Source: Sulfurimonadaceae bacterium (GTDB taxonomy: Bacteria > Campylobacterota > Campylobacteria > Campylobacterales > Sulfurimonadaceae). Taken from it: DNA of 40,083 nucleotides. Of the stretch, positions 13,606-30,316 are shown piece by piece (the stretch's first letter is position 1; each line of letters begins with the position of its first letter). The notes under the pieces were generated by a model. That model worked only from the letters and a program-made list of their open reading frames with translations, made no database searches and had not been told where the DNA came from. Location of the stretch: contig JADGEC010000017.1 of assembly GCA_016744575.1 (NCBI GenBank), positions 1 to 40,083 of the forward strand. The letters are read 5' to 3'. The translations under genes were made by a program, and so were the position numbers.

Positions 13606-13998
13606 ATGCTATTTGACCTGAAGATGCCCTTACTTGGCTTTGAATCGATTATGAAGATGCGACTTGAGAAAGTCGACGATATCTTTATGCGTCTCAAGGC
13701 TCCCGATGAGGATGAGCCCTCTTTCACACTGATCAATCCTTTTGTACTTCGTGATTACTCTTTTGACATCCCAGTGTCTGTTCAGCAACTCATGGGCATC
13801 AAAGAGAAGAGCAACCTTCTTATCTACAACATCATCGTCGTCCAGAACCCTATAGAGAAGTCAGTCGTCAACTTTATCGCACCGATCGTCTTCAATACAG
13901 ACAATAATACAATGGCTCAAGTCATCATCAGTGATGCTTCTCAATACGGTATCGCCGAACCAATATCCACTTTTCTTGAGGCTAAAGATGCTAACTGA
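13606..13998 (+). CDS. fliW: flagellar assembly factor FliW
   Basis: A 130-aa cytoplasmic protein that, in the FliW family, binds flagellin and antagonises the translational repressor CsrA, linking flagellin level to its own synthesis. The N-terminal MPLLGFESIMKMRLEKVDDIFMRL, the middle FTLINPFVLRDYSFDIP and LLIYNIIVVQNPIEKSVVNFIAPIVFN match the family pattern, and the length is normal. GGAG lies seven bases before ATG 13606. proC starts 11 bases before its stop, as in a translationally coupled pair. csrA is not in this window. Confidence 0.93.
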   Translation: MLFDLKMPLLGFESIMKMRLEKVDDIFMRLKAPDEDEPSFTLINPFVLRDYSFDIPVSVQQLMGIKEKSNLLIYNIIVVQNPIEKSVVNFIAPIVFNTDNNTMAQVIISDASQYGIAEPISTFLEAKDAN

Positions 13999-14755
13999 CA
14001 CATTGACGTTCATAGGCAACGGGGCTATGGCACTTGCCCTTGCAAAGGGGCTCAAAAGCACTTATACTATTGAAGTAGTCGGACGTAGTGATAAACGACT
14101 TGATGAGTTTGAAGAGAAACTTGGTCTCACCATAGCGAAACATTCACTTGAAGGTTTTGACATCTCCGCAAAGACGATCATCTTATGTGTCAAACCGGCA
14201 AATATCTTGACTGTCGGCACACAGTTGACTGGAAAAGCCTCACTACTCTACTCCGTCCTCGCAGGGACCACACTACAGACACTTACAAACAATGTCGATG
14301 CTGATGCCACTGTCCGTGCCATGCCAAACCTTGCAGCAACTGTTGGAAAGTCCATGACGACACTGACCGGAGATGCCGGCAGTCAAGCGCAGGCCCTGGC
14401 ACTTTTTGACGCTATAGGCAGCACCTTGTGGGTAAACAGTGAGAAAGAGCTTGATGTCGCTACTGCTCTTGCAGGAAGCGGACCAGCCTATCTGGCACTT
14501 ATTGCCGAAGCACTTGCCGATGGTGCTGTCCGAGAAGGGATCAAACGTGATGATGCCATGACCCTGATGCGCGGACTATTTGACGGTTTTGGTGCATTGA
14601 TCCAAGATGAGCATCCTGCATTACTTAAAGATGCCGTCATGAGTCCGGGAGGGACCACAGCTGCCGGCTATGCCGCACTGGAGAAGAACAGTGTACGAAG
14701 CGGATGTATCGATGCTGTCGCAAGCGCGGCAAAGCGTGCCAAAGAGCTTGCCTAA
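13988..14755 (+). CDS. proC: pyrroline-5-carboxylate reductase ProC
   Basis: A 255-aa cytoplasmic enzyme that reduces 1-pyrroline-5-carboxylate to proline with NAD(P)H. The N-terminal TLTFIGNGAMALALAKGL is the dinucleotide-binding loop. VRAMPNLAATVGKSMTTL and the C-terminal signature PGGTTAAGYAALEKNSVR are diagnostic. I choose ATG 13988: it begins exactly where family homology begins and has GAGG upstream. The extra 19 codons back to 13931 are fliW read in another frame. It overlaps fliW by 11 bp. Confidence 0.95.
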   Translation: MLTDTLTFIGNGAMALALAKGLKSTYTIEVVGRSDKRLDEFEEKLGLTIAKHSLEGFDISAKTIILCVKPANILTVGTQLTGKASLLYSVLAGTTLQTLTNNVDADATVRAMPNLAATVGKSMTTLTGDAGSQAQALALFDAIGSTLWVNSEKELDVATALAGSGPAYLALIAEALADGAVREGIKRDDAMTLMRGLFDGFGALIQDEHPALLKDAVMSPGGTTAAGYAALEKNSVRSGCIDAVASAAKRAKELA

Positions 14756-14777
14756 CAGGCTCTAGTTTAATATTTTT
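14741..14777 (+). terminator. possible intrinsic terminator of fliW-proC
   Basis: AGAGC...GCTCT (with an alternative GCC...GGC pairing) spans the proC stop codon and is followed by the T-rich AGTTTAATATTTTTT. The stem is short and imperfect, so support is moderate. Confidence 0.4.
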
Positions 14778-14784
14778 TAACTAT

Positions 14785-14805
14785 TTATAATATAACATAT
14801 TATAA
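14785..14805. repeat. perfect AT palindrome (9 bp arms, 3 bp spacer) upstream of adhesin 1
   Basis: TTATAATAT (14785-14793) and ATATTATAA (14797-14805) are exact inverted copies around AAC. The site sits at the upstream edge of the conserved adhesin leader. It could be an operator or simply AT-rich promoter DNA. The second leader has no equivalent palindrome. Confidence 0.6.
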
Positions 14806-14880
14806 TATTTAAGCATGCTATTAGTTTTATATGTGTACCATTAATCATTATAGTGATAACTAGATGAGTGGTTGGTCGCA
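14803..14880 (+). promoter_or_regulatory. conserved adhesin leader, copy 1
   Basis: This stretch is closely related to 20724-20802, upstream of the second giant gene. A first block (14803-14828) matches at 23 of 26 positions. A spacer of exactly 22 bases follows in both copies. A second block (14851-14880, TAGTGATAACTAG...GTGGTTGGTCGCA) again matches closely. A TATAGT at 14849-14854 could be a weak -10. The region between proC and the gene start (14756-15060) otherwise holds only a short ORF at 14948. Shared promoter or 5'-UTR control of both adhesin genes is the simplest reading. Confidence 0.65.
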
Positions 14881-14947
14881 AACGCCTTATAAAATAGTAT
14901 GCATCTTTCTTCTCATCTTTTTCAAACAGTATGAAAAAGGGGAGTAT

Positions 14948-15004
14948 ATGACTTCAAAAGACCTACTCCAAAAAACAAATATACGTAAAAAGATATCTAT
15001 TTAA
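14948..15004 (+). CDS. 18-codon leader ORF before adhesin 1
   Basis: ATG 14948 with GGGGAG four bases upstream opens an 18-codon frame (MTSKDLLQKT...) ending in TAA 56 bases before the adhesin start at 15061. It is basic and has no hydrophobic stretch. It may be a leader peptide or chance. The better argument for it is that the second adhesin gene also has a short ORF with a good ribosome binding site in the equivalent position. Confidence 0.35.
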   Translation: MTSKDLLQKTNIRKKISI

Positions 15005-15060
15005 CAAATATGATAGTTTTTGATCGACTGCCTCCTTTTTCTCTGTTCTCACAAGGAGAC

Positions 15061-18000
15061 ATGATGAACCCGTTAAGACTCTCAGTACTAGATGATGACC
15101 ATGAGAAAACTTTTTTCTATCGATCATTATTCATTTTCTTTTTCAATTTAGTTCAATATTTAGGCCGTCTAGCGATCGACTATGACAAACGTTCTAGACC
15201 AACGACCTTTGTACAGGTCAGTAGAAAATCTACACACCCCTCTTTCTTTTTGCTGTTGACTCTTGGAATGATCAGCTTTTCTCATCCCACATCACTTCAG
15301 GCTGCATCGTATGGCTGTCAGGGAGAGAATGTCACAAACATCCATGGTGCCACAACAGATGCCTACCAACAGTATACGGAGAACAGTACTGGAGGAGGTG
15401 GTTACTCACGTTACTTCAAGTTCACCCCCCAAGTAGATGGAGATATCACCATCACGTTTGGTAATACAAGCGATACACGTCAAAGGATGTACATAGGGAC
15501 ATCCTGCCAAGGTAGTCAGATCTATTACAGTGGCAATAGCACAGGTTCTTCTCATACGTTCAGTATCACCTCGGGTGAGACTTATTATGTCAGGATGCGT
15601 GAAAGGAATGCTTCGGATAGAATACGCTTCACGATCAGCTTTGATCTAACAGCCATCGCGATCGTCGGCGGATGTGATAGCAGCCTTGACACTAGTGCAA
15701 ATAACTCTGCTCCTGGAGTCATCGTAAGTAGTATGCACAATATCACCACTGATACGACGGCCTGTATCAGTGGTTATTCGGACGATGCTCAAGGAAGCCC
15801 TGAAAAGGATGATCTTTACTATTTCACTGTAGGAAGTGCAGGTACTCTAGACATGACGACCTCATCACCAAACGGACACTCTTACCACCTGTTGATCGGT
15901 TCGACATCTAATGGAACCCAATACTATGGCGATTCAACAGCACAATCGCACAATATCCCATCACTTACACTTGCTGCCGGTGATTCAGTCTATCTCAAGT
16001 TCAAAGAGACTGGCAGTGATCTGGATGAATATGAGATGGACTTTAGTTTTACACCGTTGAGCTCTGATCTATCTATCACCAAAGATATAGATAACTCCTC
16101 TCCCGAAGTCGATGACGTCGTGACCTATACCATCGTCGGTACCAATAACGGTCCAGATACTTCTAATATCATCATCACAGACGATCTTCCAAATGGACTG
16201 GAGTTCCTATCAATCGAGGACGATAAAAATGACTTCGAGTGTCAAAGGGCAGATGTACTTATCACCTGTGAAGGTACGCAAGACTTTTCCAATGGTGAGG
16301 ATGTGACAATAACACTCAAAGCCCATGTCAGAGAGAGTGCCACCATCACAAATACGGTGGCTATTACTTCAAGCGATGACAGGATCGACCCTGTTGCAGA
16401 CAATGATGAGGCCGAGGTCGACCTTACATCAGAAGTAGCAGACGCTTTAGCTGTCGATGACAGTTTCAACGCCCAGGCAAACACGACCTTTTCTGGTAAT
16501 GTCTTGGCAAATGATTCTGGTGGTGGACTTGAAGTGACCAGCTATGATCCAAGTACTCTGACAGGAAGCATCATCTCCTTCGACCTCTTAACCGGAAGTT
16601 TCTCCTATATACCTTCATCAGGTTTCACTGGCACGGACTCCTTCACCTATGATATCGTCGACAGCAATGCACTCACTTCATCTGCGACCGTCTTTCTCGC
16701 AGTGAGCGCACCTGAGGTAGGTTACACACAATGTTCAGACAACGGTCTCTCCGAAGCTTACAGGGAGTTCTGTCTAAGAAGATCGATGCTTCTTCCGGGT
16801 GATATGATCACCGTGGGCAATACCATCTTGGTCGCTCCCGGGACAGAAGCGACAAATAACACGGCTAACTGTAATACCTACACAAACGGTACCTATATAG
16901 ATGATGCATCTTCTTCAAACAATAACTACCGACTCTGTGGATACAGTGTGGACAATGACTCCAGTACTGCTTCGACAACGGCAGAAGTATCAGGCATCCC
17001 AACTGATGGCTCCAGGATACGGTTTGCAGGGCTCTATTGGCAAGCATTGATCGACAATGCTACCGGTATCGAGACCACAGCGAACATCCAGATCAGAAAA
17101 GATGGTGCAGGAAACTACCAAGATGTCACTGCCAGTCAGGTCGATTATGGCATCAATGTCGGTCATACTGGAGAGACAAGCTATTCAGCCTTTGCTGATG
17201 TGACAAGTATCTTTAGCAGTAATCATTGGCAAGACGGAAACTATACTGTCAGTGGTATCCCTGTCAAAGAGGGAGAGATAGGTAATCTTGGTACCTATGG
17301 AGCATGGAATCTGATCATCATCTATGAGAATAGTACCAAGTCGATGAAAAGCTTCTCCATCTTTGATGGCTGGGATCAAGTCGATAGCGGGAGACAAGAC
17401 GTACCTATTGAGATCAGTGGTTTCTATACACCCAAACAGACCCCTATCAACTCTACTGTATCAGTCTTTGCAGCCGAAGGTGACAAACATATCTCTCGAG
17501 ATCATCTTTATGCCATTCCAAAGAAAAAAGCCCCTGTCCAGACAGAACTAAGCCATACATCAGGACAGACCTTTGACTCGAGTATACAGACGACCCCGTT
17601 CTATCGTCTTCCAGACCCATTGAACAACCAGGGTATTGATATCCAGTCTTTTGAACTCGGCAGCAGCGGACTCAATATACTAGAGACAGAAGAGAACAAC
17701 ATCACCTTTAAGTTCACCTCAGACCAGGACCGTTATTGGCCATCGATGATCGCATTTGAGACAGAGGTCTATGCCCCTCGTTTTTGTTATGACTACAGCT
17801 ATAAACAGAATTTTTTCTATTTCACTGAGGACAATAACGGAACGCAAGAACCAATGGTACAGGGGTCTGTCAATCCTCATCAAGACATCGAAGTCAGCCT
17901 TTACATCAGAAATGAGGAAGACTCCGATGTCGCTGCAGAGAACATCACACTTGACTTCCGAGATATCAATTCGACACAGGTCACCTATGTCAATAACTCT

Positions 18001-20661
18001 GTCGACGTCATCTTTGCTGGTGACACTTATCGAACAAACATCGCCGAACCACCTGTGACCACTACCAGTACCAGTATCAACAATATCCCTACCGGAGGTA
18101 TTGGAGGGGAAGAGTACTTTTACACTTACTATAAAGTCAACCCAAATGTCGCTGATATCAACTATACACTGGCTGCTGATATCAACTACTCATTGGTCTT
18201 CTATGATGCTGGGGGAAATGAACTCGCACGCTATCCATACAACAGTACGATAGGTGGTGATGACTTTCCATTATGTACTGGTGCAAACTTCAGTTATGAA
18301 CCCGAATGGAGTATTTTCAATGTAGTACAAAGTGATCTCTATGATACAGCACACCAATACTATAATATTCCAACACAAGTAGCAGGGAGACCCGGGAGAT
18401 TCGACCTGGTCTCATTCTTACCACCTCCAAACGAGAACACTGAAAATGGCGTCAGTACGATAATCTCTGTTGAGATGATAGATGCAGGGGCCTATCATGA
18501 TATCAATGCGTCATGCCGTGAACCTTCAAGTGCTATAAGTTCAAAAGTCTGGATGTTATTTGAGAACAATACCTCAAAGGTCGCATTCGACAGTGCTTCT
18601 ATCCAGGATGCGATCGACAATGGGATGACGACCATGACGAGTTCGACTGAGATGTTCAACAATGCGACTGATAACGCTGCATTTCGAGTCTCGTACTTGA
18701 CGACAAATGACGATAATGCATCTTTACCAAATATTGTCATGCATGGAAATAAGGTCCAGGTAGCAAACTTCGATCACCTGATCTCTGGAAACACTATGTG
18801 TATTGACAATCCGGCTACAAGTATCGATAGTGTCTGTGATACGGCTTCGATCAGTGGGAACATCGGTATATCCAAGCCTCAGTTGAGCCAATGTATGGAA
18901 TGTATCTTCGGGATCAGTACTACCCGCATTTGTTCACGGGATAATTTCGCCATTAGACCCGAAAGCTTTAATCTAAGACTGATAGACCTTGATCAAGAGG
19001 ACCACAATGTTACAGAGCGATTCGCGGAAGACAGGACTGGGGTAGCTTCACCAAACACAAGTAGAGTAGATCTTGCTGCAGGTTATGCCTATGGTCTTGA
19101 ACTAAATGCGACCTCCCATCATGATAACAAGGCGATACTTGGATATCGAAGGAACTTAAGTCCGGCTGTCGCCACTGACTACGGTGTCTCCTTTGTCTGG
19201 GACCCATCTGACGTCAGTGTCACCCCTATGTGTAATGATGATTCAAACATGTCATTGACGATGGATATCTATGACGGGACCAGTACCAGTGAACAGAACC
19301 TGACACAAGTCGGTGAATACAAGCTAACCGCTTTTGATAACACCTGGACACAGGTCGATTATGACACACTCTATATGCAGCATCATAGCGATAGTACCCA
19401 CTTTTTAGGAGGGGTGACGGGTAAAGATTGTCTATCGACTTCCTCGATTGTCCAGAACATCGATACTTCTGCTTCTTTTGATAGCTCTAGCAATGTGATC
19501 AGTAATATCAATGGTTGTAAGATCAATAGCGACCATGATAATGCAGATGCCTCGTTGCGATATCGTGACTACAGTACCACTTTCCATCCGTATGAGCTCA
19601 ACACCAGTGCACTGTCCTTTACACATGGTAACAGTCTCAATATTGACTTCACAAATGCATGGGTCTATATGAACAATATCTCCGCTGATGATAACATCTC
19701 AGTAAACATATCTGGTGATATCATCGCAAAAGGCTATGATGGTACACAGTTGAGCAATTTTGTCAGTGGTTGTTACGCTGAACCGATCGATCTTTCTGTC
19801 GGTCGTGTATTACCAACATCTATACCTGTCTCATATGACTTCTTGCTTCTTGACACTAACGGTACAGATACACTGGCGACTAAAACAGGAGATCTTAATA
19901 CGACTACAATATTACAGCCATCACCATCCCTTCTTGATGGGAACTTCACCAAAGCCGCAAGAGGATCGACGACCATCGATCTACATATGAATTTTGCTCG
20001 AACTGTCAACAATCCGGTCAATCCTCTCGTCGTAAGCTTCATAGACTTCAATGTCACCTGTGCTACAGCAGCAAACTGCCAGATGAAAGCAGACTTGACA
20101 GCAGCACATGAAGCCATTGGTCAGAAGCCTATCCTTGGGAGCGTGACACACTACTATGGAAGAGTCCATGCACCACGTTATCGGATAAGCGAGAACACAG
20201 GTACATTAAGACTCTATTACGAAGTCTACTGTGACCCCAATACATCATCAAATCCCTGTACTATTAACGATCCAAGCGATCATACACAGACTATGTCAAA
20301 TCGATTACTAAGTGTTGATGACATCAGATGGTATAGAAATGAAGCACACACCTCTGGAGTCGAGGGAGACATCAACACCTCCTTACCACCAAGAGGTCTG
20401 GATGCGCTTACAGCAAATGACAGAGTGGATTATGATCAGGCAAACTTTATCTATGATGAGTCTAAAGGCTACCCTTATAAGACCACCATACAGGTACCAT
20501 CAGACTCTTGGCTCATCTATAACAAGTTCGACGCTGCCGCAATGGTCAACTTCTTTGAACTCGAGTTCAACAGTGCTGGTAGATCCGTCGGTAAGCGCAT
20601 CGGTGTCAGCAGCACTGATTCCAACGCTTCTAGAAATACCAACAGGAGAATACAGTGGTAA
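15061..20661 (+). CDS. giant secreted MshQ-like surface protein 1 (PPC, DUF11 and cadherin-like domains)
   Basis: About 1866 aa, exported. ATG 15061 has AAGGAG four bases upstream; ATG 15010 has no such site. The N-terminus is unusual: a hydrophobic segment (18-35), a basic stretch, then a signal-like core (62-74) with likely cleavage near residue 81. Next come two PPC-like beta domains (83-200, 201-334), a DUF11 domain (335-460, LSITKDIDNSSPEVDDVVTYTI), a cadherin-like Ig domain (461-549, LANDSGGG...GFTGTDSFTYDI), and a beta-rich region (550-940) resembling the GDxxxVGNT surface family. From about 1230 on, FAIRP (1296), YYGRVHAPRY and WLIYNKF resemble the C-terminus of MshQ (DUF6701). It is probably a pilus-tip adhesin or surface lectin. 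No C-terminal anchor is seen. Confidence 0.82.
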   Translation: MMNPLRLSVLDDDHEKTFFYRSLFIFFFNLVQYLGRLAIDYDKRSRPTTFVQVSRKSTHPSFFLLLTLGMISFSHPTSLQAASYGCQGENVTNIHGATTDAYQQYTENSTGGGGYSRYFKFTPQVDGDITITFGNTSDTRQRMYIGTSCQGSQIYYSGNSTGSSHTFSITSGETYYVRMRERNASDRIRFTISFDLTAIAIVGGCDSSLDTSANNSAPGVIVSSMHNITTDTTACISGYSDDAQGSPEKDDLYYFTVGSAGTLDMTTSSPNGHSYHLLIGSTSNGTQYYGDSTAQSHNIPSLTLAAGDSVYLKFKETGSDLDEYEMDFSFTPLSSDLSITKDIDNSSPEVDDVVTYTIVGTNNGPDTSNIIITDDLPNGLEFLSIEDDKNDFECQRADVLITCEGTQDFSNGEDVTITLKAHVRESATITNTVAITSSDDRIDPVADNDEAEVDLTSEVADALAVDDSFNAQANTTFSGNVLANDSGGGLEVTSYDPSTLTGSIISFDLLTGSFSYIPSSGFTGTDSFTYDIVDSNALTSSATVFLAVSAPEVGYTQCSDNGLSEAYREFCLRRSMLLPGDMITVGNTILVAPGTEATNNTANCNTYTNGTYIDDASSSNNNYRLCGYSVDNDSSTASTTAEVSGIPTDGSRIRFAGLYWQALIDNATGIETTANIQIRKDGAGNYQDVTASQVDYGINVGHTGETSYSAFADVTSIFSSNHWQDGNYTVSGIPVKEGEIGNLGTYGAWNLIIIYENSTKSMKSFSIFDGWDQVDSGRQDVPIEISGFYTPKQTPINSTVSVFAAEGDKHISRDHLYAIPKKKAPVQTELSHTSGQTFDSSIQTTPFYRLPDPLNNQGIDIQSFELGSSGLNILETEENNITFKFTSDQDRYWPSMIAFETEVYAPRFCYDYSYKQNFFYFTEDNNGTQEPMVQGSVNPHQDIEVSLYIRNEEDSDVAAENITLDFRDINSTQVTYVNNSVDVIFAGDTYRTNIAEPPVTTTSTSINNIPTGGIGGEEYFYTYYKVNPNVADINYTLAADINYSLVFYDAGGNELARYPYNSTIGGDDFPLCTGANFSYEPEWSIFNVVQSDLYDTAHQYYNIPTQVAGRPGRFDLVSFLPPPNENTENGVSTIISVEMIDAGAYHDINASCREPSSAISSKVWMLFENNTSKVAFDSASIQDAIDNGMTTMTSSTEMFNNATDNAAFRVSYLTTNDDNASLPNIVMHGNKVQVANFDHLISGNTMCIDNPATSIDSVCDTASISGNIGISKPQLSQCMECIFGISTTRICSRDNFAIRPESFNLRLIDLDQEDHNVTERFAEDRTGVASPNTSRVDLAAGYAYGLELNATSHHDNKAILGYRRNLSPAVATDYGVSFVWDPSDVSVTPMCNDDSNMSLTMDIYDGTSTSEQNLTQVGEYKLTAFDNTWTQVDYDTLYMQHHSDSTHFLGGVTGKDCLSTSSIVQNIDTSASFDSSSNVISNINGCKINSDHDNADASLRYRDYSTTFHPYELNTSALSFTHGNSLNIDFTNAWVYMNNISADDNISVNISGDIIAKGYDGTQLSNFVSGCYAEPIDLSVGRVLPTSIPVSYDFLLLDTNGTDTLATKTGDLNTTTILQPSPSLLDGNFTKAARGSTTIDLHMNFARTVNNPVNPLVVSFIDFNVTCATAANCQMKADLTAAHEAIGQKPILGSVTHYYGRVHAPRYRISENTGTLRLYYEVYCDPNTSSNPCTINDPSDHTQTMSNRLLSVDDIRWYRNEAHTSGVEGDINTSLPPRGLDALTANDRVDYDQANFIYDESKGYPYKTTIQVPSDSWLIYNKFDAAAMVNFFELEFNSAGRSVGKRIGVSSTDSNASRNTNRRIQW

Positions 20662-20681
20662 CACTCTCCTCTTGAGGAGTG
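20662..20681 (+). terminator. hairpin directly after the adhesin 1 stop codon
   Basis: CACT-CCTC pairs with GAGG-AGTG around a tiny loop, with a two-base bulge. There is no U-run afterwards, so it is at best a weak terminator or an mRNA 3'-end stabiliser. The rest of the gap up to 20724 shows nothing recognisable. Confidence 0.35.
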
Positions 20682-20723
20682 CTACTATGCAGTTATAATG
20701 AACACTAATTGTTTAACATTATT

Positions 20724-20802
20724 TAATATTTAAGAATCTTATTAGTTTTCTAGGGGTATGATTTAGTATTGTAGTGACAATTAGGTGGGTGGTCGGGTCG
20801 CA
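20724..20802 (+). promoter_or_regulatory. conserved adhesin leader, copy 2
   Basis: This is the counterpart of 14803-14880: first block 20724-20749, the same 22-base spacer, second block from 20772 (TAGTGACAATTAGGTGGGTGG...TCGCA). The first block contains AAGAATCTT, and copy 1 has AGCATGCT at the same place. Both are small palindromes, although the bases differ. TTGTAGT near 20770 could act as a -10. It precedes a 47-codon ORF and the second giant gene and should drive the whole pilin run. Confidence 0.65.
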
Positions 20803-20904
20803 CAGTTCCTGCGTTTCTTCACAACTATATGAGATCAAGACATGACCCACACGGATCACACCCCGAGAATTGTACTTCCCTGATCTTCAAAAGTAGGAGG
20901 CTTC

Positions 20905-21048
20905 ATGCACTTTTTCATACCTTTTTTCTTCTTTTTCTCACGTACTTACACTTTAAGTGATGTTGCTCTCGATATAAGACCTACTATTCTCAAATCAAAT
21001 AAAGACCGAATACTCTTCTATCCTGTCTCTAAAAAGGAACAAAGATGA
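20905..21048 (+). CDS. 47-aa small protein coupled to adhesin 2
   Basis: ATG 20905 is preceded by a near-perfect AGGAGG (20895-20900). The frame encodes MHFFIPFFFFFS, a short very hydrophobic start, then a polar basic tail (RTYTLSDVALDIRPTILKS...). Its TGA overlaps the ATG of the next gene (ATGA at 21045-21048), the classical layout for translational coupling. The protein is too short for a family assignment. It could be a leader whose translation loads ribosomes onto the adhesin message. Its hydrophobic-then-basic pattern loosely recalls the N-terminal extension of adhesin 1. Confidence 0.55.
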   Translation: MHFFIPFFFFFSRTYTLSDVALDIRPTILKSNKDRILFYPVSKKEQR

Positions 21049-24000
21049 GGCTGTTTACCGATAGATCATATTTGACTAGCCTCTTAATCTTCTATATATT
21101 TTTATCGACAAACGTATTTGCCCTATCTGAGGATGAAAGTACAAACAATAGCTGTCCAACAGGTCAAGTCATCTTAAATACCTCCACGACTTCAAACGCA
21201 CTGGTCAGCGACGCACAAGTAGATCGGGATTTTGACTATTCCGACTATTACACTTTATCATTTACTGCTGATGGCACACTTGATATCTCGCTGGCCTCCA
21301 ATAAAAACATATATCTACTCATCGGAAACAGCTGTGACGGGACTACTCTATATGACGGTCGAGTCAAGACGAAGACTCACAGTCAAGCAGCCATCCCTAT
21401 CACTGCAGGTTCCTCAGTATATGTGAAAGCCTATCTTGATAATACGTTCAATAATAGTACCAGGACATATACATTAAATGCTGATTTTACGGCAGCACCT
21501 TCTCCAGACCCCATCGCAGAATACAGATTTGATGAGTGTTCATGGGATGGTAATAGTGATGAAGTAAAGGACTCGATCGGAAGCGTTCATGGCCAAAGCT
21601 ATAATGGTGCAGACATCAATAGCAGTGATGCCCTTTTATGTAGCAGTGCTCTCTTTGATGGGGATGACGATCATCTATCGATGGGTGACTCTTTTAATGA
21701 CATATTTGGCAGCGCTAACAATAGTTTTAGCATCACCGCATGGATAAAGGCTGTGAGTCTGAGTTCGACTACCAGCAATCATGGTACCGCCAACACTATC
21801 ATCGCCAAAGCATCTGACAGCGCAAATGATAACCTTGAGATCGGCGTAAACACGGATGGTACCTTGCATATCTATTTAGATACCGAGACTGACACCAATG
21901 AGGACTTTGGTGCGACTGGTAGCATAATGACAGACCGCTGGAATTTTATTGCATTAAGTTATGACGGTACAGCGATGACTGTCACGATCAATGGTACGAC
22001 TTATGCATCTGGTGGTGGGAAAGGTACCATAGCTGACGCCGCAGGCAGTCCTTTTACCATAGGCACTACGCTACATAGTGACACCTCATTCAATGGACTT
22101 ATCGATGAGGTCAAGATCTTTGACAGTGCCTTGTCTTCATCGATGCTTAGCGATATCTTTACCAATGAGGGCTCCGGTAATGACTATACTGATAACAGTA
22201 GAGAGTGCCAGGACTGTCTAGCAGGCTACTGTGAGACAAACAATCTCGTAGAAGGCTTCCATATCATAGACCCTGACGGTGGTGATGATAAAAACTCCTA
22301 TGAGATCTATTGTGACATGTCAAGTGCACAGGCACCAAGGGAGTTGATTTCACTGCCACTCAAAAACTTCTCAAACAACATGGTCTTTACAGATGACACA
22401 CCCGATGTAAACTATTACTCAGAGGCCCAATCCGGTGATAGTTTTTCATATCTTCAGATAAAGATAGCAACAGATAACACTATCCATATCATTCCCGACT
22501 CCATAGCGGAAGAGTCATCATCCAATGCCGGTTATTTCAGTAACATCAACCTGATAGGGACTCCTTTTGCAATCGATTGGGACAACACGACTCTTTCAAA
22601 CTGTAATACCAGTAAATTGCGTAAAGGTTCCTGGGACCAAGCAGTAAAGATCAACACATTAGACATGGCAAACGGTCGCTGTAAAGTCGAGGGCATGCAG
22701 TTAAGACTACTTGATGATTATCAATATCTGACCTTTGATGACATAGACAGTGGTGGTGAGATCCTAGAAGAGACATGTCGTCAGATCTTTGAGAAGATCC
22801 CTGATGACAGCAGTCACTTACCTACAGTAGATGGAGAGTCAAACGGTCATTTCTGGATCGATCCAGATGAAGGTGGCCGAGTTGGGGGAGATACTGTCAC
22901 CACCCTTTTCAGACCCTTTGTCGCTTACTGTAAATATCAAGAAGACATCGACCAGGCCTGGACATTCGTCATAGCTCTTGATGCCAAAGTCACCAATAGT
23001 AAAGATGATATCAAGACCATGGAACAGGTCCGTAATGATCAAAACACTTATCATGACACCTGTAGCCAACTCGGTCTCCTTTTCTATGTACCAAATTCTC
23101 AAGACACTTTTGAGCGCACAAAGAACTATTTGAGTCTAAACAAACAGGAGTGGATAGACTATACAGGTACGATCCGTGAAAAATACAAGATGTATAAGAA
23201 CAATCCTGATCAAGAGTATTATATTAAAGCTGAAGGTTTTAATGAGATCTGGCCTTATGGTCCCTTCGGTGTCTATAATAACTGTCGTGGAGACAAGATA
23301 TGGAATGGGTCATCATGCCAGTCATTTTCCAACTGGGGCGATGGTGGGGATAGTCCTAAACTGGCTATGAGCAGCCGATGTATGAAACTTGATGGTGCAT
23401 GTGATGACCATCCAGGAGGGTATTCTCTTCCAGATGGAAACATGGACCTTGGTAACCTTGGAGACGCCGGATGGCGAACGACACTGATGGACCAGGTCGA
23501 AAGTGGCCTGATCACGGGCATCACTGATGGTGACAAGTGGTGGGTCAGCGACAAGGGTGCTGGAGGCTACTTAGATTGTTCCGGCGGCGGGTGTTCAGAT
23601 GACTATTATGAACCAAATGGCAACTACACTCCACAGGCCTGGCTCAACTGGATAGCAGATGAGAATGGTGATGTCTATCATGATGATGACAATAATGACT
23701 TTTACTCGTACTATGATTATATGTGCATGGCATGGGACAATTATTATAGCTTTCAACGTTATGGTCTGACCATAGGTCCGTTCACAGTCGATGAGCATGA
23801 TCCTGCTCTCACAACGGGTGATCCAATACCAAACGATCTGAACATCACCACAAAGATAGTCGGAAAGCCTTTGGAACTTGATGCTCTACTGTTTGATGAT
23901 TCACGTACACAGATCATCGATGATCAAAACATCAGTGCCGGGCTGTTCCTGGTCGGTTTTGAGACGATCAATGAACAAGAGAAGACTATAGACCTTCACT

Positions 24001-25655
24001 ACTACGGGCAAATAGGGGCAAATGATGACTTCAACCTTTCTATCAACCCCAGAGGTATCATCTCGTTAAACGATGAGTCTCCTTATCCTAACACCCAGAT
24101 AGATACGGCTGTCAAACGATTAGCATTTCAATATAAATATTGTCTTCGCGATGACATATTATGGACAGGATGTTGGACTACATCTGGAAGTGACGCTTCT
24201 ACAGCAGCCATATGTACAGACAACTGTACCCCTAACGATGTCGGATGCGCATGTAAGGTCGCTGAATCAGATGATTTTGCGGTACGCCCAGAGAAGTTCA
24301 ATATCACTACACCTACGGCACTTATCGTCAAAGCAGGTGTCAATCTTGACGTCACATACAGTGCGAACATCTACGGCTCAGATACGATCACGGCACTAGA
24401 CTATAATGAATCAACGGATCTCTCCGTAGACGTCAATATCACACTCGCGGACCCTACTGTCATATGTAAGTACACCTCCATAGAGTTGAACTCAACAGTC
24501 GCTTTTGAAGATGGCCAGGATATCCATCCAACAAGTTTTGATCACATTGGAGCGTACCATATCAACATACATGAAGTAGATGGGACAGAGTTTGCTAAAG
24601 TCGATGCAGATGACACCAATGACAGCGCCCGATTTATAGTAGAGTTTGATGATGATCTGACAGTCATACCTGATCACTTTGATTTGACCATCTTTCCAAA
24701 GATCGACCATGGCAATGGCTTCACCTACCTTTCAAACGATCTCGACAGCATGGCAGTAAGACTCGATGTGAATATCACCGCCAAACGTGCGGATGGAGTC
24801 ACCACAGAAAACTATACAGATGGCTGTTATGCAAAGAGTACGTCTCTTAAAGTCCATCATGGGGCGATACCTGGCACTCAGAATCTCATCGATTATAAAG
24901 AAGCCACATCAGATATCAATGGGTCTAAGACACCTGGCACTGATCTTACGATCCCTGGGATCACTCCAACCGTCTTTACCATCGATAATAACGGGACAGC
25001 AGAACTTGAACTGTTGATGAACTTTGGAAGAGTCATCGACACACCAATAGACCCTTTCAAGTTTACGATCAATGATCTGAATGTGACGGACACAGACAGT
25101 GTGTCCGTATCAGATAGTACTGTCGATCTTAATGCCACTATGTACTACGGACGCGTTCACACCTCTCGGAACAGAGTCGGTTGTGTGAATAGTGCAGCAT
25201 GTACGGCCATCATCCCTCTCTATTATGAGATCTATGCAAGTAATAGCAGTGATCCACTTATAGCTAATGTCTCTTCAGGAAATCTGCTAAGTATTGACGA
25301 CATCAACTGGTATCAAAATACCATACATACAACTGATGATGGAAACATCACAGGGAGGTTTGAGCCTAAAAACATATCCGCGATAAGCAACTTTAACAAT
25401 TCATTGAACGATAGTGTCGTTGATTTTAAAAATGCTTTTTTCTCTTACACTGGCAACAAGGGCTACCCGTATAAGACATCCATCGATATCAACGCCAGTG
25501 AGTGGTTGATCTATCACAGGTTTAACAATACTGCGACTAAGAACAGTTTTGAACTAGAGTTCAACAGTGCTGGTAATGTCGCTGGTAAACACATCGGTGT
25601 CAGTGGTTCTGACTCCAACGCATCTATTAATACTAACAGGAGGATCACATGGTAA
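21045..25655 (+). CDS. giant secreted MshQ-like surface protein 2 (PPC, LamG and GON/fibrinogen-like domains)
   Basis: A 1536-aa exported protein with a normal signal peptide (SYLTSLLIFYIFLSTNVFA, cleavage near 27). A PPC-like domain occupies 33-150. A LamG/concanavalin-like lectin domain follows (153-380: IAEYRFDECSWDG...SITAWIKA...WNFIALSYDG...FNGLIDEVKIFDSALS). Residues about 390-930 form a Cys-, Trp- and Asp-rich region with two IDPDxGG...YC motifs (IDPDGGDDKNSYEIYCDM and IDPDEGGRVGGDTV...VAYCKY), resembling GON or fibrinogen-like modules. The C-terminus, with FAVRP at 1078, is MshQ/DUF6701-like and clearly paralogous to that of the upstream giant gene. Its last codons carry the AGGAGG for the next gene, which overlaps by 7 bp. 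It is a likely sugar- or matrix-binding tip adhesin of the adjacent pilus. Confidence 0.82.
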   Translation: MRLFTDRSYLTSLLIFYIFLSTNVFALSEDESTNNSCPTGQVILNTSTTSNALVSDAQVDRDFDYSDYYTLSFTADGTLDISLASNKNIYLLIGNSCDGTTLYDGRVKTKTHSQAAIPITAGSSVYVKAYLDNTFNNSTRTYTLNADFTAAPSPDPIAEYRFDECSWDGNSDEVKDSIGSVHGQSYNGADINSSDALLCSSALFDGDDDHLSMGDSFNDIFGSANNSFSITAWIKAVSLSSTTSNHGTANTIIAKASDSANDNLEIGVNTDGTLHIYLDTETDTNEDFGATGSIMTDRWNFIALSYDGTAMTVTINGTTYASGGGKGTIADAAGSPFTIGTTLHSDTSFNGLIDEVKIFDSALSSSMLSDIFTNEGSGNDYTDNSRECQDCLAGYCETNNLVEGFHIIDPDGGDDKNSYEIYCDMSSAQAPRELISLPLKNFSNNMVFTDDTPDVNYYSEAQSGDSFSYLQIKIATDNTIHIIPDSIAEESSSNAGYFSNINLIGTPFAIDWDNTTLSNCNTSKLRKGSWDQAVKINTLDMANGRCKVEGMQLRLLDDYQYLTFDDIDSGGEILEETCRQIFEKIPDDSSHLPTVDGESNGHFWIDPDEGGRVGGDTVTTLFRPFVAYCKYQEDIDQAWTFVIALDAKVTNSKDDIKTMEQVRNDQNTYHDTCSQLGLLFYVPNSQDTFERTKNYLSLNKQEWIDYTGTIREKYKMYKNNPDQEYYIKAEGFNEIWPYGPFGVYNNCRGDKIWNGSSCQSFSNWGDGGDSPKLAMSSRCMKLDGACDDHPGGYSLPDGNMDLGNLGDAGWRTTLMDQVESGLITGITDGDKWWVSDKGAGGYLDCSGGGCSDDYYEPNGNYTPQAWLNWIADENGDVYHDDDNNDFYSYYDYMCMAWDNYYSFQRYGLTIGPFTVDEHDPALTTGDPIPNDLNITTKIVGKPLELDALLFDDSRTQIIDDQNISAGLFLVGFETINEQEKTIDLHYYGQIGANDDFNLSINPRGIISLNDESPYPNTQIDTAVKRLAFQYKYCLRDDILWTGCWTTSGSDASTAAICTDNCTPNDVGCACKVAESDDFAVRPEKFNITTPTALIVKAGVNLDVTYSANIYGSDTITALDYNESTDLSVDVNITLADPTVICKYTSIELNSTVAFEDGQDIHPTSFDHIGAYHINIHEVDGTEFAKVDADDTNDSARFIVEFDDDLTVIPDHFDLTIFPKIDHGNGFTYLSNDLDSMAVRLDVNITAKRADGVTTENYTDGCYAKSTSLKVHHGAIPGTQNLIDYKEATSDINGSKTPGTDLTIPGITPTVFTIDNNGTAELELLMNFGRVIDTPIDPFKFTINDLNVTDTDSVSVSDSTVDLNATMYYGRVHTSRNRVGCVNSAACTAIIPLYYEIYASNSSDPLIANVSSGNLLSIDDINWYQNTIHTTDDGNITGRFEPKNISAISNFNNSLNDSVVDFKNAFFSYTGNKGYPYKTSIDINASEWLIYHRFNNTATKNSFELEFNSAGNVAGKHIGVSGSDSNASINTNRRITW

Positions 25656-26365
25656 GAGCTGCTTTTACTATGATCGAATTGATCTTTGCTATCGTCGTCA
25701 TCGGGATCATCTCCGTCTCCATACCGACGATCATGGTCAACAACTCAAAGAATGTCGAGGTCAACCTTATGCAAGAGGCCATACTTATCGTCGCGACAAA
25801 GACTGGTCAGGTCTTGACATATCCCTGGGATGAGAACAGCCGTGACCCAGGTAGTACGATCTTGGCAAAGACCGATGCACTAAACATCAATGAGTTCTTC
25901 TTTGATGGTGAGCTTGATCGAAACGTCTCTGATTTCAGACGTGGGCATTTTCAACAAGCCCTCCGTCGTAAACTGACTCCTTCCAATGCTGAACGAAGTG
26001 CGACTGCATCAAATCTTTTAGCTTTGGAAGCACTTGACTTGAACGTGGCTGATGATATAGATGACTTCAATGGACAGTCTGTTCTGCTTACTCACATTGG
26101 AGAAGATGGCTATAAAAAAGATTATAATCTTAGTGCAAGCGTCATCTATGTGAGCGATATAGCTGCTTATGTCAATGGAGGCACTACCCCGTTGCTTTTT
26201 AATTTCACTAAAGCAGATGCAGGGCGTGCCACCAATATCAAGATGCTGGAGCTCAATGTAAGAGCAAGAGACAATGCTGGTAATTGGCCATTGCAACCCG
26301 ATATTCTTTTTAGAAGCTTCGCTTCTAATATCGGGGAGACTGATTACTATAAAAGGACCTACTGA
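25649..26365 (+). CDS. prepilin-like protein, MshD-like
   Basis: A 238-aa inner-membrane precursor with a type IV prepilin leader: MVRAA then FTMIELIFAIVVIGIISVSIPTIM. Cleavage is expected after Ala5, with the conserved Glu at position +5. The soluble part has a beta-sandwich-like pattern, and DDIDDFNGQSVLL...YNLSASVIYV...TNIKMLELNVRARDNAGNWPLQPDILFRSFASN closely follows the outline of MshD-type minor pilins. Its start overlaps the adhesin 2 stop by 7 bp, with AGGAGG encoded in the adhesin tail, and its stop overlaps the next gene by one base. It is probably a minor pilin in the tip complex carrying the adhesin. Confidence 0.8.
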   Translation: MVRAAFTMIELIFAIVVIGIISVSIPTIMVNNSKNVEVNLMQEAILIVATKTGQVLTYPWDENSRDPGSTILAKTDALNINEFFFDGELDRNVSDFRRGHFQQALRRKLTPSNAERSATASNLLALEALDLNVADDIDDFNGQSVLLTHIGEDGYKKDYNLSASVIYVSDIAAYVNGGTTPLLFNFTKADAGRATNIKMLELNVRARDNAGNWPLQPDILFRSFASNIGETDYYKRTY

Positions 26366-27261
26366 TGATGAAAAAAGCCTTCACAATGCTAGAACTCATC
26401 TTCGTGATCACGATAATGGGAATCATCGGTACCGTCGGAGCCAATGTCCTGAGTATCATGTATGAGAATTATATCTCCAGCGCTGTCAACAACCAGATGC
26501 AGTCACAGACAGAACTTGCCATGCAGCAGATCTCCAATCGAATGAGTTCACGCATCAAAGACTCTGTTATCGCAGCTAATGACCTTGGTTTCAATGGCTT
26601 AAGCGATGCTCGTGATGATGTCAACTACACCCGAGTGGAGTGGATAGGCTATGACAATGACAGCTGGCTTGGAGACGCGGCCAGTACAGCTCCTGCATGG
26701 TCCGGTTTTATAGACGTGGATGCTCACAATGTAGCAAGACTAAGTTCACCCGGTTCTGACTTCACGGCCAACGGACGTATTGACACCAATATTCAGGCAC
26801 TCTCTGACAGTGACATCACTGATGCTGCTATCTTTTTTATCGGGACCAATACCGACGTACAAAATGACTATGGCTGGAATGGTTCGGCCTACAACATCAA
26901 TGACACAGCCATGCACCCTGTCGCAGCAGCGCCAAACACAGATGAGATCATACCTGCCGGATACACCTTTTTCGGGGTAGATGTCTATGAACAGTACAAG
27001 CTTGCCTGGACAGCCTACGCCATCGGGATCGACCCTAATAATGACAACCTCTACCTTTACTACGATTACCAGCCATGGCAGGGTGACTCTTATAATGATA
27101 ATAATACCAAGCAAGTACTCCTGATGGAACATGTATCCACTATAAAAGCACAAGCTATTGGGGATGTCATCAAACTACAGATCTGTGTCGACAACAACAT
27201 CAGTGGGACTATCACATCAGATGAACTCTACAGCATCTGTAAAGAGAAGGTGATATTTTGA
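26365..27261 (+). CDS. prepilin-like protein, MshO/PilW-like
   Basis: A 298-aa precursor with the leader MMKKA followed by FTMLELIFVITIMGIIGTVGANVL, a canonical class-III prepilin N-terminus (Glu at +5, Ala at -1). After the membrane helix comes QTELAMQQISNRMSSRIKDSVI, the amphipathic segment typical of PilW/MshO proteins, then an Asp- and Tyr-rich globular domain with a C-terminal cysteine pair. The start may be ATG 26365 or 26368; AAGGA lies upstream. It overlaps both neighbours. By gene order it corresponds to MshO, between the MshD-like and MshP-like proteins. Confidence 0.8.
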   Translation: MMKKAFTMLELIFVITIMGIIGTVGANVLSIMYENYISSAVNNQMQSQTELAMQQISNRMSSRIKDSVIAANDLGFNGLSDARDDVNYTRVEWIGYDNDSWLGDAASTAPAWSGFIDVDAHNVARLSSPGSDFTANGRIDTNIQALSDSDITDAAIFFIGTNTDVQNDYGWNGSAYNINDTAMHPVAAAPNTDEIIPAGYTFFGVDVYEQYKLAWTAYAIGIDPNNDNLYLYYDYQPWQGDSYNDNNTKQVLLMEHVSTIKAQAIGDVIKLQICVDNNISGTITSDELYSICKEKVIF

Positions 27262-27737
27262 GGACTTATCAACACAATCGGCACGGAATGGCGATGTTTG
27301 CCGCAATAGCTTTTTTACTAGTCATGGCTACCATCGCAGGCTTGATGGTATCGATGACATCACTAACATCAAAACGAGGTGTCGATCTCTATTTTCAAGA
27401 GCAGGCACATCTACTGGCAAAAAGTGCGACAGAGTACGCACTATTGGCTATCTCTGGACACAGTATTGAAACTACTGGAAACTGCATCAATTCTATTACC
27501 TCTTCTTATGATGGTATCTATGATATCAATACGACGATCCGCTATATAGGAAGTGGTTTTCCTACTGCAGCAGGTGCATGTGACATGATTCAGTATGCAA
27601 GTGGAGGCGATATCAATAATATTGTCACAGCTGAATCAAATGGCACCATCATCATCGATGTCTACGTAACTGCTCCATCCAATGAGACAGGGGCTGAACG
27701 GGTACGTTTCCATCGCAGGACCATGCAAAAACCGTAG
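27258..27737 (+). CDS. small pilin-like protein, MshP/PilX-like
   Basis: A 159-aa precursor. TTG 27258 overlaps the previous TGA by four bases and has AGAAGG upstream. The leader MRTYQHNRHG is followed by MAMFAAIAFLLVMATIAGLMVSM, a hydrophobic helix after a glycine cleavage site. Position +5 is not Glu, as is common in PilX/MshP and GspK-like proteins. Then come AHLLAKSATEYALLAISGH, the usual helix continuation, and a small domain with Cys residues in NCINSI and GACDMI. It closes the pilin run; the next gene has its own promoter. Confidence 0.72.
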   Translation: MRTYQHNRHGMAMFAAIAFLLVMATIAGLMVSMTSLTSKRGVDLYFQEQAHLLAKSATEYALLAISGHSIETTGNCINSITSSYDGIYDINTTIRYIGSGFPTAAGACDMIQYASGGDINNIVTAESNGTIIIDVYVTAPSNETGAERVRFHRRTMQKP

Positions 27738-27850
27738 TATTTAAGAAAAGCAACACCCTTGTCCCATGTCACCAATGCACCGCATGGGATCAAACATAGA
27801 TTTGTCCTTCACATATCAGATCTCAACCTTATCCATTAAGATGAAGATGT

Positions 27851-27856
27851 TATAAT
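27851..27856 (+). promoter_or_regulatory. -10 box for the hibernation factor gene
   Basis: A perfect TATAAT lies 29 bases before ATG 27885 in the 147-bp gap after the pilin run. The same gap holds a CCCATG...CATGGG inverted repeat (about 27763-27788) without a T-run, which may mark the 3' end of the pilin transcript. Confidence 0.6.
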
Positions 27857-27884
27857 CAGTTTACTTACCTCTAAGGAGAAATGT

Positions 27885-28427
27885 ATGAATATCTCACTGA
27901 CCGGACGCCATGTCGAACTAACTGAATCTATCAAAGATCATATGATGAGTTCTATTGATACCTTAAATAAATTCAATCTCGATATCATCTCTGTAAATGC
28001 TGTCGCATCAATGCAGGAGCGCAAGGGCAAACGCGGTCTTACGATCGAGTTCACCATCAACCTCGCCAATAAGAACACCATAGTCATAAAACAGCGAGAT
28101 GATGACCTCTATGCTGCGATCGATATAGCCATAAATCGGGCTCAGAAAGCCTTACGTCGACTCAACGACCGTAACAGTGATCACCGTAATAAAAGCGCGA
28201 ACGAAGCTAAAATCGAAGCCCAGGGTGAGATTAACCTTAGTGACGCACATGAAGCGCTTGAAGATGAGATAGTCCCTGTAGAACTTGATCTCTATAAACC
28301 CAGAGAGACTGCTGATGTACTTGAAGACCTCAAAGAGAGCAACAAACAATTTGAGATCTTCAATGACAATGACGGCAAGACCAGAGTACTCTACAAACGT
28401 AGCGATGGAAGATTTGGACTGTACTAG
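27885..28427 (+). CDS. hpf: long-form ribosome hibernation promoting factor
   Basis: A 180-aa ribosome-associated protein that drives 70S inactivation or 100S dimer formation in slow growth. The N-terminal sigma-54 modulation/RaiA domain (1-95) begins MNISLTGRHVELTESIKDHM and includes VNAVASMQERKGKRGLTIEFTINL and DDDLYAAIDIAINRAQKALRRL. The C-terminal domain (about 125-180; VPVELDLYKPRETADVLEDLKESNKQFEIF...GRFGLY) is the dimerisation module of the long form. AAGGAG lies six bases before ATG 27885. It is convergent with recG. Confidence 0.93.
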   Translation: MNISLTGRHVELTESIKDHMMSSIDTLNKFNLDIISVNAVASMQERKGKRGLTIEFTINLANKNTIVIKQRDDDLYAAIDIAINRAQKALRRLNDRNSDHRNKSANEAKIEAQGEINLSDAHEALEDEIVPVELDLYKPRETADVLEDLKESNKQFEIFNDNDGKTRVLYKRSDGRFGLY

Positions 28428-28461
28428 TATCCCACGATGACTTGTAGATGAGGGCCTCTTA

Positions 28462-28492
28462 ACGGATTTGATCCGTCTCTTGTCTTCAAGAG
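28462..28492. terminator. two adjacent hairpins between hpf and recG
   Basis: ACGGAT-TTG-ATCCGT (28462-28476) is followed with no gap by CTCTTG-TCTT-CAAGAG (28477-28492), which ends at the base before the recG stop codon. Both stems are perfect 6-bp pairs. No U-run follows on either strand, so Rho-independent termination is uncertain, but the placement between convergent genes fits a transcript-end structure. Confidence 0.5.
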
Positions 28493-30316
28493 CTAGTGCT
28501 CTATCTTCTCTTCTATATAATTTTTCACCTCTTTGACCACCGCCGCATCCTCTGCCATGTCTACCCAAAGAAACCTTTTTCCACTTTGGCTTTTTCCCGT
28601 CAGCAAGTCACCACTTTGACGAAACTTCAAGTCCAACTGTGCGATGTCAAAACCGTTGTCAGTCGTTGTAAAAGCGTCTAGACGTTCACTTCCATCTTGA
28701 TGCGTAAAGAGGTAACAGTAACCCTTTAGGCCTGTCCGGCTGACACGACCACGAAGTTGATGCAGGCTCGAAAGACCAAGACGTTCTGCACCGACGATGA
28801 CCACCGTACTTAAGCGTGGCAAAGAGATACCTACTTCTACTACCGTGGTCGCCAAAAGGACATTTCCCTTCTCACGAAAGTCGAGTAAGACCTGCTCTTT
28901 GGCCTTATCTTTTCCATGCGTGACATACACCTCCTCAAAACGTGTCTCCCAGAACGAACGTGCTTCTTCTATGCTTTGATAGTTCAATGCCTCGCTCTGT
29001 TCGACAAGTGGATAGACAAGAAGGACCTGGTGTTGCAGTGCGACCTCTGCCTTGATATGCTCCATCAGGGCTGGAAAATCCACCTTATGGATGACCTCAG
29101 TCGCAATATCTTTCTTAAAAGGTGTCTGCGTGATCAAACTGACATCGATATGTGCCGAGTCTATCATCGCCTGAGTACGAGGTATCGGAGTTGCAGAGAA
29201 CTGAAGAAGATGGGGACGCTTATGCTCAGAAGCGATGAGTTTCTCCAACCGGTTTCGCTGAGCTGTACCAAAACGGTGCTGTTCATCGATCATGACCAGC
29301 GCCGCCTCCGGAAGATCTCTGTAGAGCAGTGCATGTGTCCCCACTATAAGACCGTACTCCTCAAAGCTCTGCTTCTTCTTTGTCTTATTGGTCACTAATG
29401 TACTGCTGATCTCAGGAAGATATTTTTGTGCTTCTTCAAATAGTTGATTTGCTAAGATGGTCGTCGGTGCCATCAAGATGGCCCTGTGTGGTCTTGCTAT
29501 CATCACTGCAGCCAAGATGACCATCGTCTTTCCCGAACCTACATCTCCAACGATCATACGACGTGCTGCACTCTCTTTTGAGAGATCCTCTTGTATCTCA
29601 TCAATGGTCCTGATCTGCTCATCTGTAAGCTTGAACGGTAAAGTCTTACTCCAGGGTCTCCAAGGAGAATCAAGACTACATAAGGCAGTAAAATGCTGTC
29701 TTTTCTGTTTCAGACGCTGCATATAGTCAAAAAGTTCTGTGAACTTTAACGCGTATAACGCCTCTTGCGTATATCCTACCCCACTCTTATACATCGGTTC
29801 ATCAGTTGGAAAATGGATCTTCATCAACTGAGTGATGACCTTCTCGGGCAAGCCAGCCTCCCACAATTCCCTCTTGGTAAGTCGCCGTGCCACCAATCGG
29901 CCCATGACATCTGTCCGAAGCACTGTCTTATACCTAGGGGTCATAGCTCCGACAGAAGTGACCTTTTGTGGATGTGTCATCTGACAACGTCCACCAGAAC
30001 ACTCTATCTTGCCGAAAAGATAGTAGCGCTCATCTACGACGAATTGACGTAACATATAAGGTTTTGGACGAAAGATGACTGCATCGATCTTATGACCGAA
30101 ATTATGTACAAAAAGGGTGAGTTGTAGGGTATGGTGTGTACGTGATATCGCTTCTACGGTAGCATCGATCGTCTGAGACTCATGTTCGTGAAGTGCAGGT
30201 CTCAAACGTCGGTCATCATAACCCGAAGGTGCTAACAGGGCAAGACCGATGACACTCTCAATGTTTAGCTGCTTAAATCTATCGCGATCGGCTTTTTCAT
30301 TAGCAAGGATTGACAT
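28493..30316 (-). CDS. recG: ATP-dependent DNA helicase RecG
   Basis: A 607-aa cytoplasmic helicase that remodels stalled replication forks and Holliday junctions. The N-terminal third contains the OB/wedge region (TLQLTLFVHNFGHKIDAVIF). The motor has Walker A GDVGSGKTMV, motif Ib MAPTTILANQ, motif II as DEQHRFG, motif III FSATPIPRT, and VEVGISLPRLSTVVIVGAERLGLSSLHQLRGRVSRT. It is shorter than the enterobacterial enzyme (about 690 aa), from memory the usual size in Campylobacterota. It lies 63 bases downstream of the M16-like gene and may be the last gene of that transcript. Confidence 0.95.
   Translation of the reverse strand: MSILANEKADRDRFKQLNIESVIGLALLAPSGYDDRRLRPALHEHESQTIDATVEAISRTHHTLQLTLFVHNFGHKIDAVIFRPKPYMLRQFVVDERYYLFGKIECSGGRCQMTHPQKVTSVGAMTPRYKTVLRTDVMGRLVARRLTKRELWEAGLPEKVITQLMKIHFPTDEPMYKSGVGYTQEALYALKFTELFDYMQRLKQKRQHFTALCSLDSPWRPWSKTLPFKLTDEQIRTIDEIQEDLSKESAARRMIVGDVGSGKTMVILAAVMIARPHRAILMAPTTILANQLFEEAQKYLPEISSTLVTNKTKKKQSFEEYGLIVGTHALLYRDLPEAALVMIDEQHRFGTAQRNRLEKLIASEHKRPHLLQFSATPIPRTQAMIDSAHIDVSLITQTPFKKDIATEVIHKVDFPALMEHIKAEVALQHQVLLVYPLVEQSEALNYQSIEEARSFWETRFEEVYVTHGKDKAKEQVLLDFREKGNVLLATTVVEVGISLPRLSTVVIVGAERLGLSSLHQLRGRVSRTGLKGYCYLFTHQDGSERLDAFTTTDNGFDIAQLDLKFRQSGDLLTGKSQSGKRFLWVDMAEDAAVVKEVKNYIEEKIEH

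Follow-up and report, generated by a model that had tools for sequence, protein, structure and literature searches.

Tandem MshQ-like adhesins with a conserved base and block-replaced heads, encoded at the probable tip locus of an MSHA-type pilus in Campylobacterota

A 40,083-nucleotide (nt) stretch of DNA from a Sulfurimonadaceae bacterium (GenBank assembly GCA_016744575.1, contig JADGEC010000017.1; here called the window) carries a locus of two very long plus-strand open reading frames (ORFs) followed by three prepilin-like ORFs. We designated this set Q1 (ORF1), Q2 (ORF2), D, O and P; it lies on contig C214 of a 3.59-Mb draft genome in 228 contigs. The locus belongs to a type IV pilus of the mannose-sensitive hemagglutinin (MSHA) class, or MSH class. 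Very probably it encodes the tip complex of this pilus, with the assembly operon, the pilins and the prepilin peptidase encoded elsewhere and with the adhesin heads replaced en bloc. MSH-type pili in Epsilonproteobacteria have already been reported from gene models (Denise et al. 2019, PMC6668835), and what is new here is the description of MSHA-type adhesins in which a conserved base can be delimited and the heads are replaced as blocks.

The replacement of a head was best seen by comparing the window with the sister genome G001. D, O and P of the two genomes are 82, 91 and 94% identical, and the alignment between the two Q2 proteins is confined to the C terminus (35%). At the DNA level, positions 20150 to 20965, which cover the Q1 base, the intergenic region and the first ~60 nt of the leader, are 80% identical to G001. 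From 20965 to 25503 there is no match at the syntenic place, and similarity (85%, up to 30371) resumes at 25503, 51 codons before the end of Q2. Moreover, a leader remnant (MHFFIPFFFFFSRTYTLSD) corresponds to the beginning of Q2 in G001 (MRFFIPFFFFLSLTYTLNA). The LamG/FBG/X head of ORF2 is 56 to 63% identical to that of G199, a genome of another genus in which D, O and P are 27 to 40% identical, and the last 170 residues of ORF2 are 52 to 54% identical to own-genus adhesins and 33% to G199. Since the breakpoints, the relic leader and the combination of a G199-like head with an own-genus-like base all coincide here, the head of ORF2 has most likely taken the place of an older one of the LYWQ type, as judged from these alignments. 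The GC content of ORF2 (43.7%, versus 44.9% for the window) gave no sign of a recent foreign origin. The same shape, with similarity up to about the start of Q, little or none in the head and resumption 157 to 172 codons before the end, was found in comparisons of G012 or G019 with G014, of G098 and G087 with G218, and of G218 with G195. Comparative DNA and protein evidence thus backs the proposal of a sequence-only reading of this locus, made by a model, that a common base carries exchangeable heads.

The conserved base comprises about 170 residues, from YYGRVH to NRRIxW. All 46 Q proteins inspected, including seven without a D after them, end in Trp, mostly as NRRxxW, and Q and D overlapped by precisely 7 nt in each of the 39 Q-D pairs. 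Pairwise distances in the last 170 residues correlated with those of D and P (Spearman 0.57; partial correlation, 0.43 to 0.44 when controlling for the helicase neighbor). The partial correlation dropped to 0.20 for the preceding 170 residues, and the correlation was only 0.03 to 0.11 for the stretch lying 600 to 900 residues from the C terminus. For Q1, the last ~170 residues are 75 to 79% identical to those of the sister adhesins, and the parts upstream 33 to 49%.

The C termini of ORF1 and ORF2 are homologous (37% identity over 352 amino acids [aa]; E value, 4e-51) and contain the motifs by which they had been recognized as MshQ/DUF6701-like. A profile search confirmed this directly for ORF2, with 44.4 bits against a Pfam cut-off of 27 for DUF6701, so the C termini are not devoid of a profile match. 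ORF1 consists of two PPC-like modules, DUF11 (aa 353 to 471), a Big_9/cadherin-like module (aa 480 to 561), LYWQ (aa 576 to 930), MID, PRE and the C-terminal module (aa 1545 to 1883). ORF2 consists of a PPC-like module (aa 26 to 152), LamG (aa 206 to 366; E value, 4e-24), a marginal COLFI/fibrinogen-like match (aa 382 to 471; E value, 1.5e-6), X (aa 561 to 960) and the DUF6701 C terminus. The sequence-only reading held that the N-terminal modules differ completely. This is true of the middle regions, but both N termini share a small PPC-like domain (ORF1 aa 225 to 330 versus ORF2 aa 28 to 128; 35% identity; E value, 4e-7). Of the LamG/GON-like head assigned to ORF2, the LamG part was recovered and the GON domain had no Pfam match in ORF2. 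The annotated start of ORF1 is uncertain, because a hydrophobic leader ending in LQAASYG lies ~95 residues into it. A weak Shiga-toxin-B-like match within the LamG domain of ORF2 was below the cut-off and was set aside as chance, and PHROGs matches to the adhesins were weak and unrelated. Across Q proteins the head modules vary: about half are of the LYWQ type, ORF2, G199 and partly G014 have the LamG/FBG/X type, and others have different folds. G282 and G295 contain open frames of ~4070 aa with the Q C-terminal module, the usual size being 1000 to 2000 aa.

Both adhesin genes, whose duplication had been recognized from the sequence, are preceded by an element of ~90 bp. The two copies are 76% identical, and relatives of the element lie upstream of the two G001 adhesins. 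This arrangement is consistent with a tandem duplication of a gene together with its putative promoter region. Tandem or near-tandem Q genes occur at the locus in three genera, including the single-contig genomes G219 and G225, so faulty assembly alone does not account for these pairs.

The assembly motor is missing from the window and is encoded elsewhere in the genome. Contig C188 carries an operon mshI-J-K-L-M-N, an extra ORF, mshE and mshG, in the same order as in Vibrio msh. MshL scored 262.9 bits on the equivalog model TIGR02519 and thereby passed its cut-off of 250.2. The same genome has a separate gsp-type type II secretion system (T2SS) operon (L019), and the T2SS secretin of the gsp operon on C3 passed the GspD model and scored 114 on the MshL model. 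MshE matched PF00437 and PF05157 (MshEN) above the cut-offs and did not reach those of the PilB and GspE equivalog models, and MshG and MshM were placed by T2SSF and AAA_22 matches, respectively, and by the msh order. In addition, we found three class III (N_methyl) pilins on C225, which are candidates for the major pilin MshA, two PilT-like ATPases (C57 and C122) and one prepilin peptidase (C165). Type IV pilus machinery, in whose absence the sequence-only reading would fail, is thus present as an msh-type operon. The Q-D-O-P set, the msh operon and the pilins lie on three contigs (C214, C188 and C225) and not in the one-locus arrangement, which is typical and not defining. The extra ORF between mshN and mshE (L020:6609-7154; 181 aa) had no family match and has relatives in L104 and L109, two of the second loci described below.

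The linkage of Q to this machine was apparent in relatives. In seven complete second MSH loci of other Campylobacterota (L099 to L104 and L109), Q, O, P and usually D, a further pilin and mshI to mshG lie in one stretch, with some other ORFs interspersed in L103, L104 and L109. Q and its minor pilins are thereby linked to the MSH machine. These linked loci often end in a pair of oppositely oriented pilins. The Q C terminus was found in 193 of 228 genomes of the family and in 130 of the 139 good ones. Because almost all family members have Q as well as MshM, presence and absence within the family are uninformative, and we adopted a phylum-wide comparison of 200 good genomes from ~12 families. 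Both Q and MshM were found in 75 of these, Q only in 4, MshM only in 16 and neither in 105. GspG, a T2SS marker, was over the cut-off in 31 of the 79 Q genomes; Q therefore does not depend on a T2SS, given the 48 of 79 without GspG. The 16 genomes with MshM and no detected Q, which come from genus g32 and others and include several of one genus, may retain the machine but not the adhesin. A search for MshM against plasmids gave no match.

These observations suggest a mechanism in which D, O and P would act as minor pilins priming the pilus, and each giant MshQ-like protein would be exported via its own leader and dock on the D/O/P set through its last ~170 residues. The N-terminal head would then be carried outward at the pilus tip, where it may bind ligands and mediate adhesion. 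Since both Q1 and Q2 have the base and adjoin one D-O-P set, they could serve as alternative tips. Heads would be replaced en bloc, with the conserved upstream and leader flank on one side and the conserved base on the other; the simplest route would be recombination with transferred DNA. We give even chances to a more general form of this model, in which whole adhesin heads pass from one genus to another as blocks of DNA bounded by the leader/promoter flank and the ~170-residue base, and in which the tandem pair, each member with its upstream element, lets one minor-pilin platform show either tip.

Several points weigh against this model. The putative tip position of Q is drawn from the precedent of MshQ and PilY1 and not from experiment or structure, and AlphaFold2, run on a C-terminal alignment of three sequences, returned no confident fold (predicted local distance difference test score, 29; predicted template modeling score, 0.20). 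By itself, the C terminus of ORF1 did not match DUF6701, and ORF1 is provisionally assigned to the MshQ/DUF6701 class solely via its homology to ORF2. Likewise, the presumed orthology of D, O, P and Q with the Vibrio proteins is argued from gene order, class III signals and DUF6701. The 228-contig draft leaves the distances between the msh loci unfixed, and the co-occurrence counts are not phylogenetically independent. Finally, stronger purifying selection on the base could explain part of the DNA pattern, including the point at which similarity resumes at the 3' end. Heads might have diverged fast in place, under diversifying selection and with a constrained base, with no swapping at all. Base conservation by itself would give 3' DNA similarity, and the identity between ORF1 and the G001 adhesins remains at 42 to 43% over about 1300 to 1500 aa. 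However, the module set of ORF2 differs from that of the sister's Q2 between two flanks of orthologous DNA, with the old leader left as a relic, and its head resembles that of another genus with distant D, O and P. We thus consider divergence without swapping unlikely. For Q2, selection on the base is disfavored as the explanation by the relic leader and by the resemblance of the head to that of another genus, and less so for the other pairs.

Block replacement of heads on a pilus-borne base was also weighed against other uses of the machine and of the giant proteins. The cts genes of Campylobacter encode a related pilus for DNA uptake, and we take the msh gene order found here to resemble that of the cts set. 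The machine could be mainly a DNA-uptake pilus, in which case the heads of Q would bind DNA or be incidental, and one machine could serve both purposes. The 16 genomes that keep MshM without a detected Q indicate that Q is dispensable for the machine. The folds found in the heads are extracellular ones, such as LamG, Ig-like and cadherin-like folds, and not DNA-binding ones, and we regard this account as quite improbable. Slightly less probable again is the view that both giant proteins are released freely, as substrates of either the C3 T2SS or the MSH machine, and are not tip subunits. A gsp operon is indeed present, and a similarity of PilY1 itself to substrates of T2SSs has been pointed out (PMC7541494). 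Yet 48 of the 79 Q genomes lack GspG and 75 have MshM, Q adjoins minor pilins and msh genes within single stretches, and its C terminus covaries with D and P.

In Vibrio cholerae, MshQ is the putative adhesin of the MSHA pilus (PMC7096442, PMC4624765), and its loss lowers the number of surface MSHA pili (PMC7096442). The mshI-J-K-L-M-N-E-G set and order, the minor pilins D, O and P beside Q and the lack of a prepilin peptidase in the msh operon are common to V. cholerae and the genome studied here. In contrast, Q precedes D-O-P here and follows it in Vibrio, the Q-D-O-P set, the msh operon and the pilins are on separate contigs, and two tandem Q genes with block-replaced heads share one D-O-P set. 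A single locus is usual for MSH genes (PMC6668835); compared with the systems of Denise et al., the genes are split here, and we examined the adhesin architecture. Myxococcus PilY1 (PMC7541494, PMC13190605) likewise combines a variable N terminus with a conserved C terminus that associates with minor pilins, and several adhesins per genome, some apparently horizontally acquired, serve one machine. However, the C-terminal families differ (beta-propeller PilY1 versus DUF6701), and each PilY1 has its own minor-pilin cluster, whereas two adhesins adjoin one set here. In Vibrio fischeri, mshQ is also highly variable between strains, and the allele influences competition in host colonization (PMC4094467); that study concerns another phylum and, in its accessible portion, describes neither a head/base boundary nor block replacement. 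The present comparison sets, from sequence alone, a boundary between the apparent pilus-plugging part and the specificity part of an MshQ-like adhesin across much of Campylobacterota, and Q2 offers a clear case of head replacement with an old leader relic at the junction. If docking does reside in the C-terminal ~170 residues, the attachment of MshQ to the MSHA pilus can be tested directly, with laboratory strains.

Table 1. Features of the adhesin and minor-pilin locus (window coordinates)
Feature	Position	Strand	Remarks
~90-bp upstream element before adhesin 1 (promoter region?)	14793..14880	+	76% identical to 20714-20802; related copies in sister genome G001
ORF1 (Q1), MshQ-like adhesin, 1883 codons, start codon uncertain	15010..20661	+	
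Conserved base of Q1, ~170 C-terminal residues (YYGRVH...NRRIQW)	20149..20658	+	Conservation with sister adhesins
~90-bp upstream element, second copy, before adhesin 2	20714..20802	+	
Probable relic leader ORF, 47 aa (MHFFIPFFFFFSRTYTLSD...), of former G001-type Q2	20905..21048	+	Its TGA overlaps the ORF2 ATG
Q2 head stretch, most likely replaced, ~4.5 kb	20965..25503	+	No DNA similarity to sister genome; orthologous DNA flanks both sides
ORF2 (Q2), MshQ-like adhesin, 1536 codons	21045..25655	+	
Conserved base of Q2, ~170 C-terminal residues (YYGRVH...NRRITW)	25143..25652	+	
MshD-position prepilin	25649..26365	+	7-nt overlap with Q2
MshO-position prepilin	26365..27261	+	
MshP-position protein	27258..27737	+	GspK-like N terminus, weak

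D, O and P were labeled MshD, MshO and MshP by their position, and this naming is provisional. As predicted from the sequence, they follow the adhesins in overlapping frames (7, 1 and 4 nt for Q2/D, D/O and O/P, respectively). The class III signal model TIGR02532 (cut-off, 16.3 bits) gave weak passes for D (19.5) and O (19.9), and the N terminus of P is weakly GspK-like. An Rfam scan of positions 13800 to 28500 yielded no credible family. In the window, P is followed by a ribosome hibernation factor gene and a RecG-like helicase gene. The Q-D-O-P order had been considered a peculiarity of this DNA; it is instead the norm, being nearly invariant in the 40 family loci fetched, usually beside the hibernation factor and helicase genes, and present in nearly all of the 41 loci inspected. 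In four loci of genus g6 (L060, L061, L074 and L085), an additional O-like pilin ORF lies between O and P.
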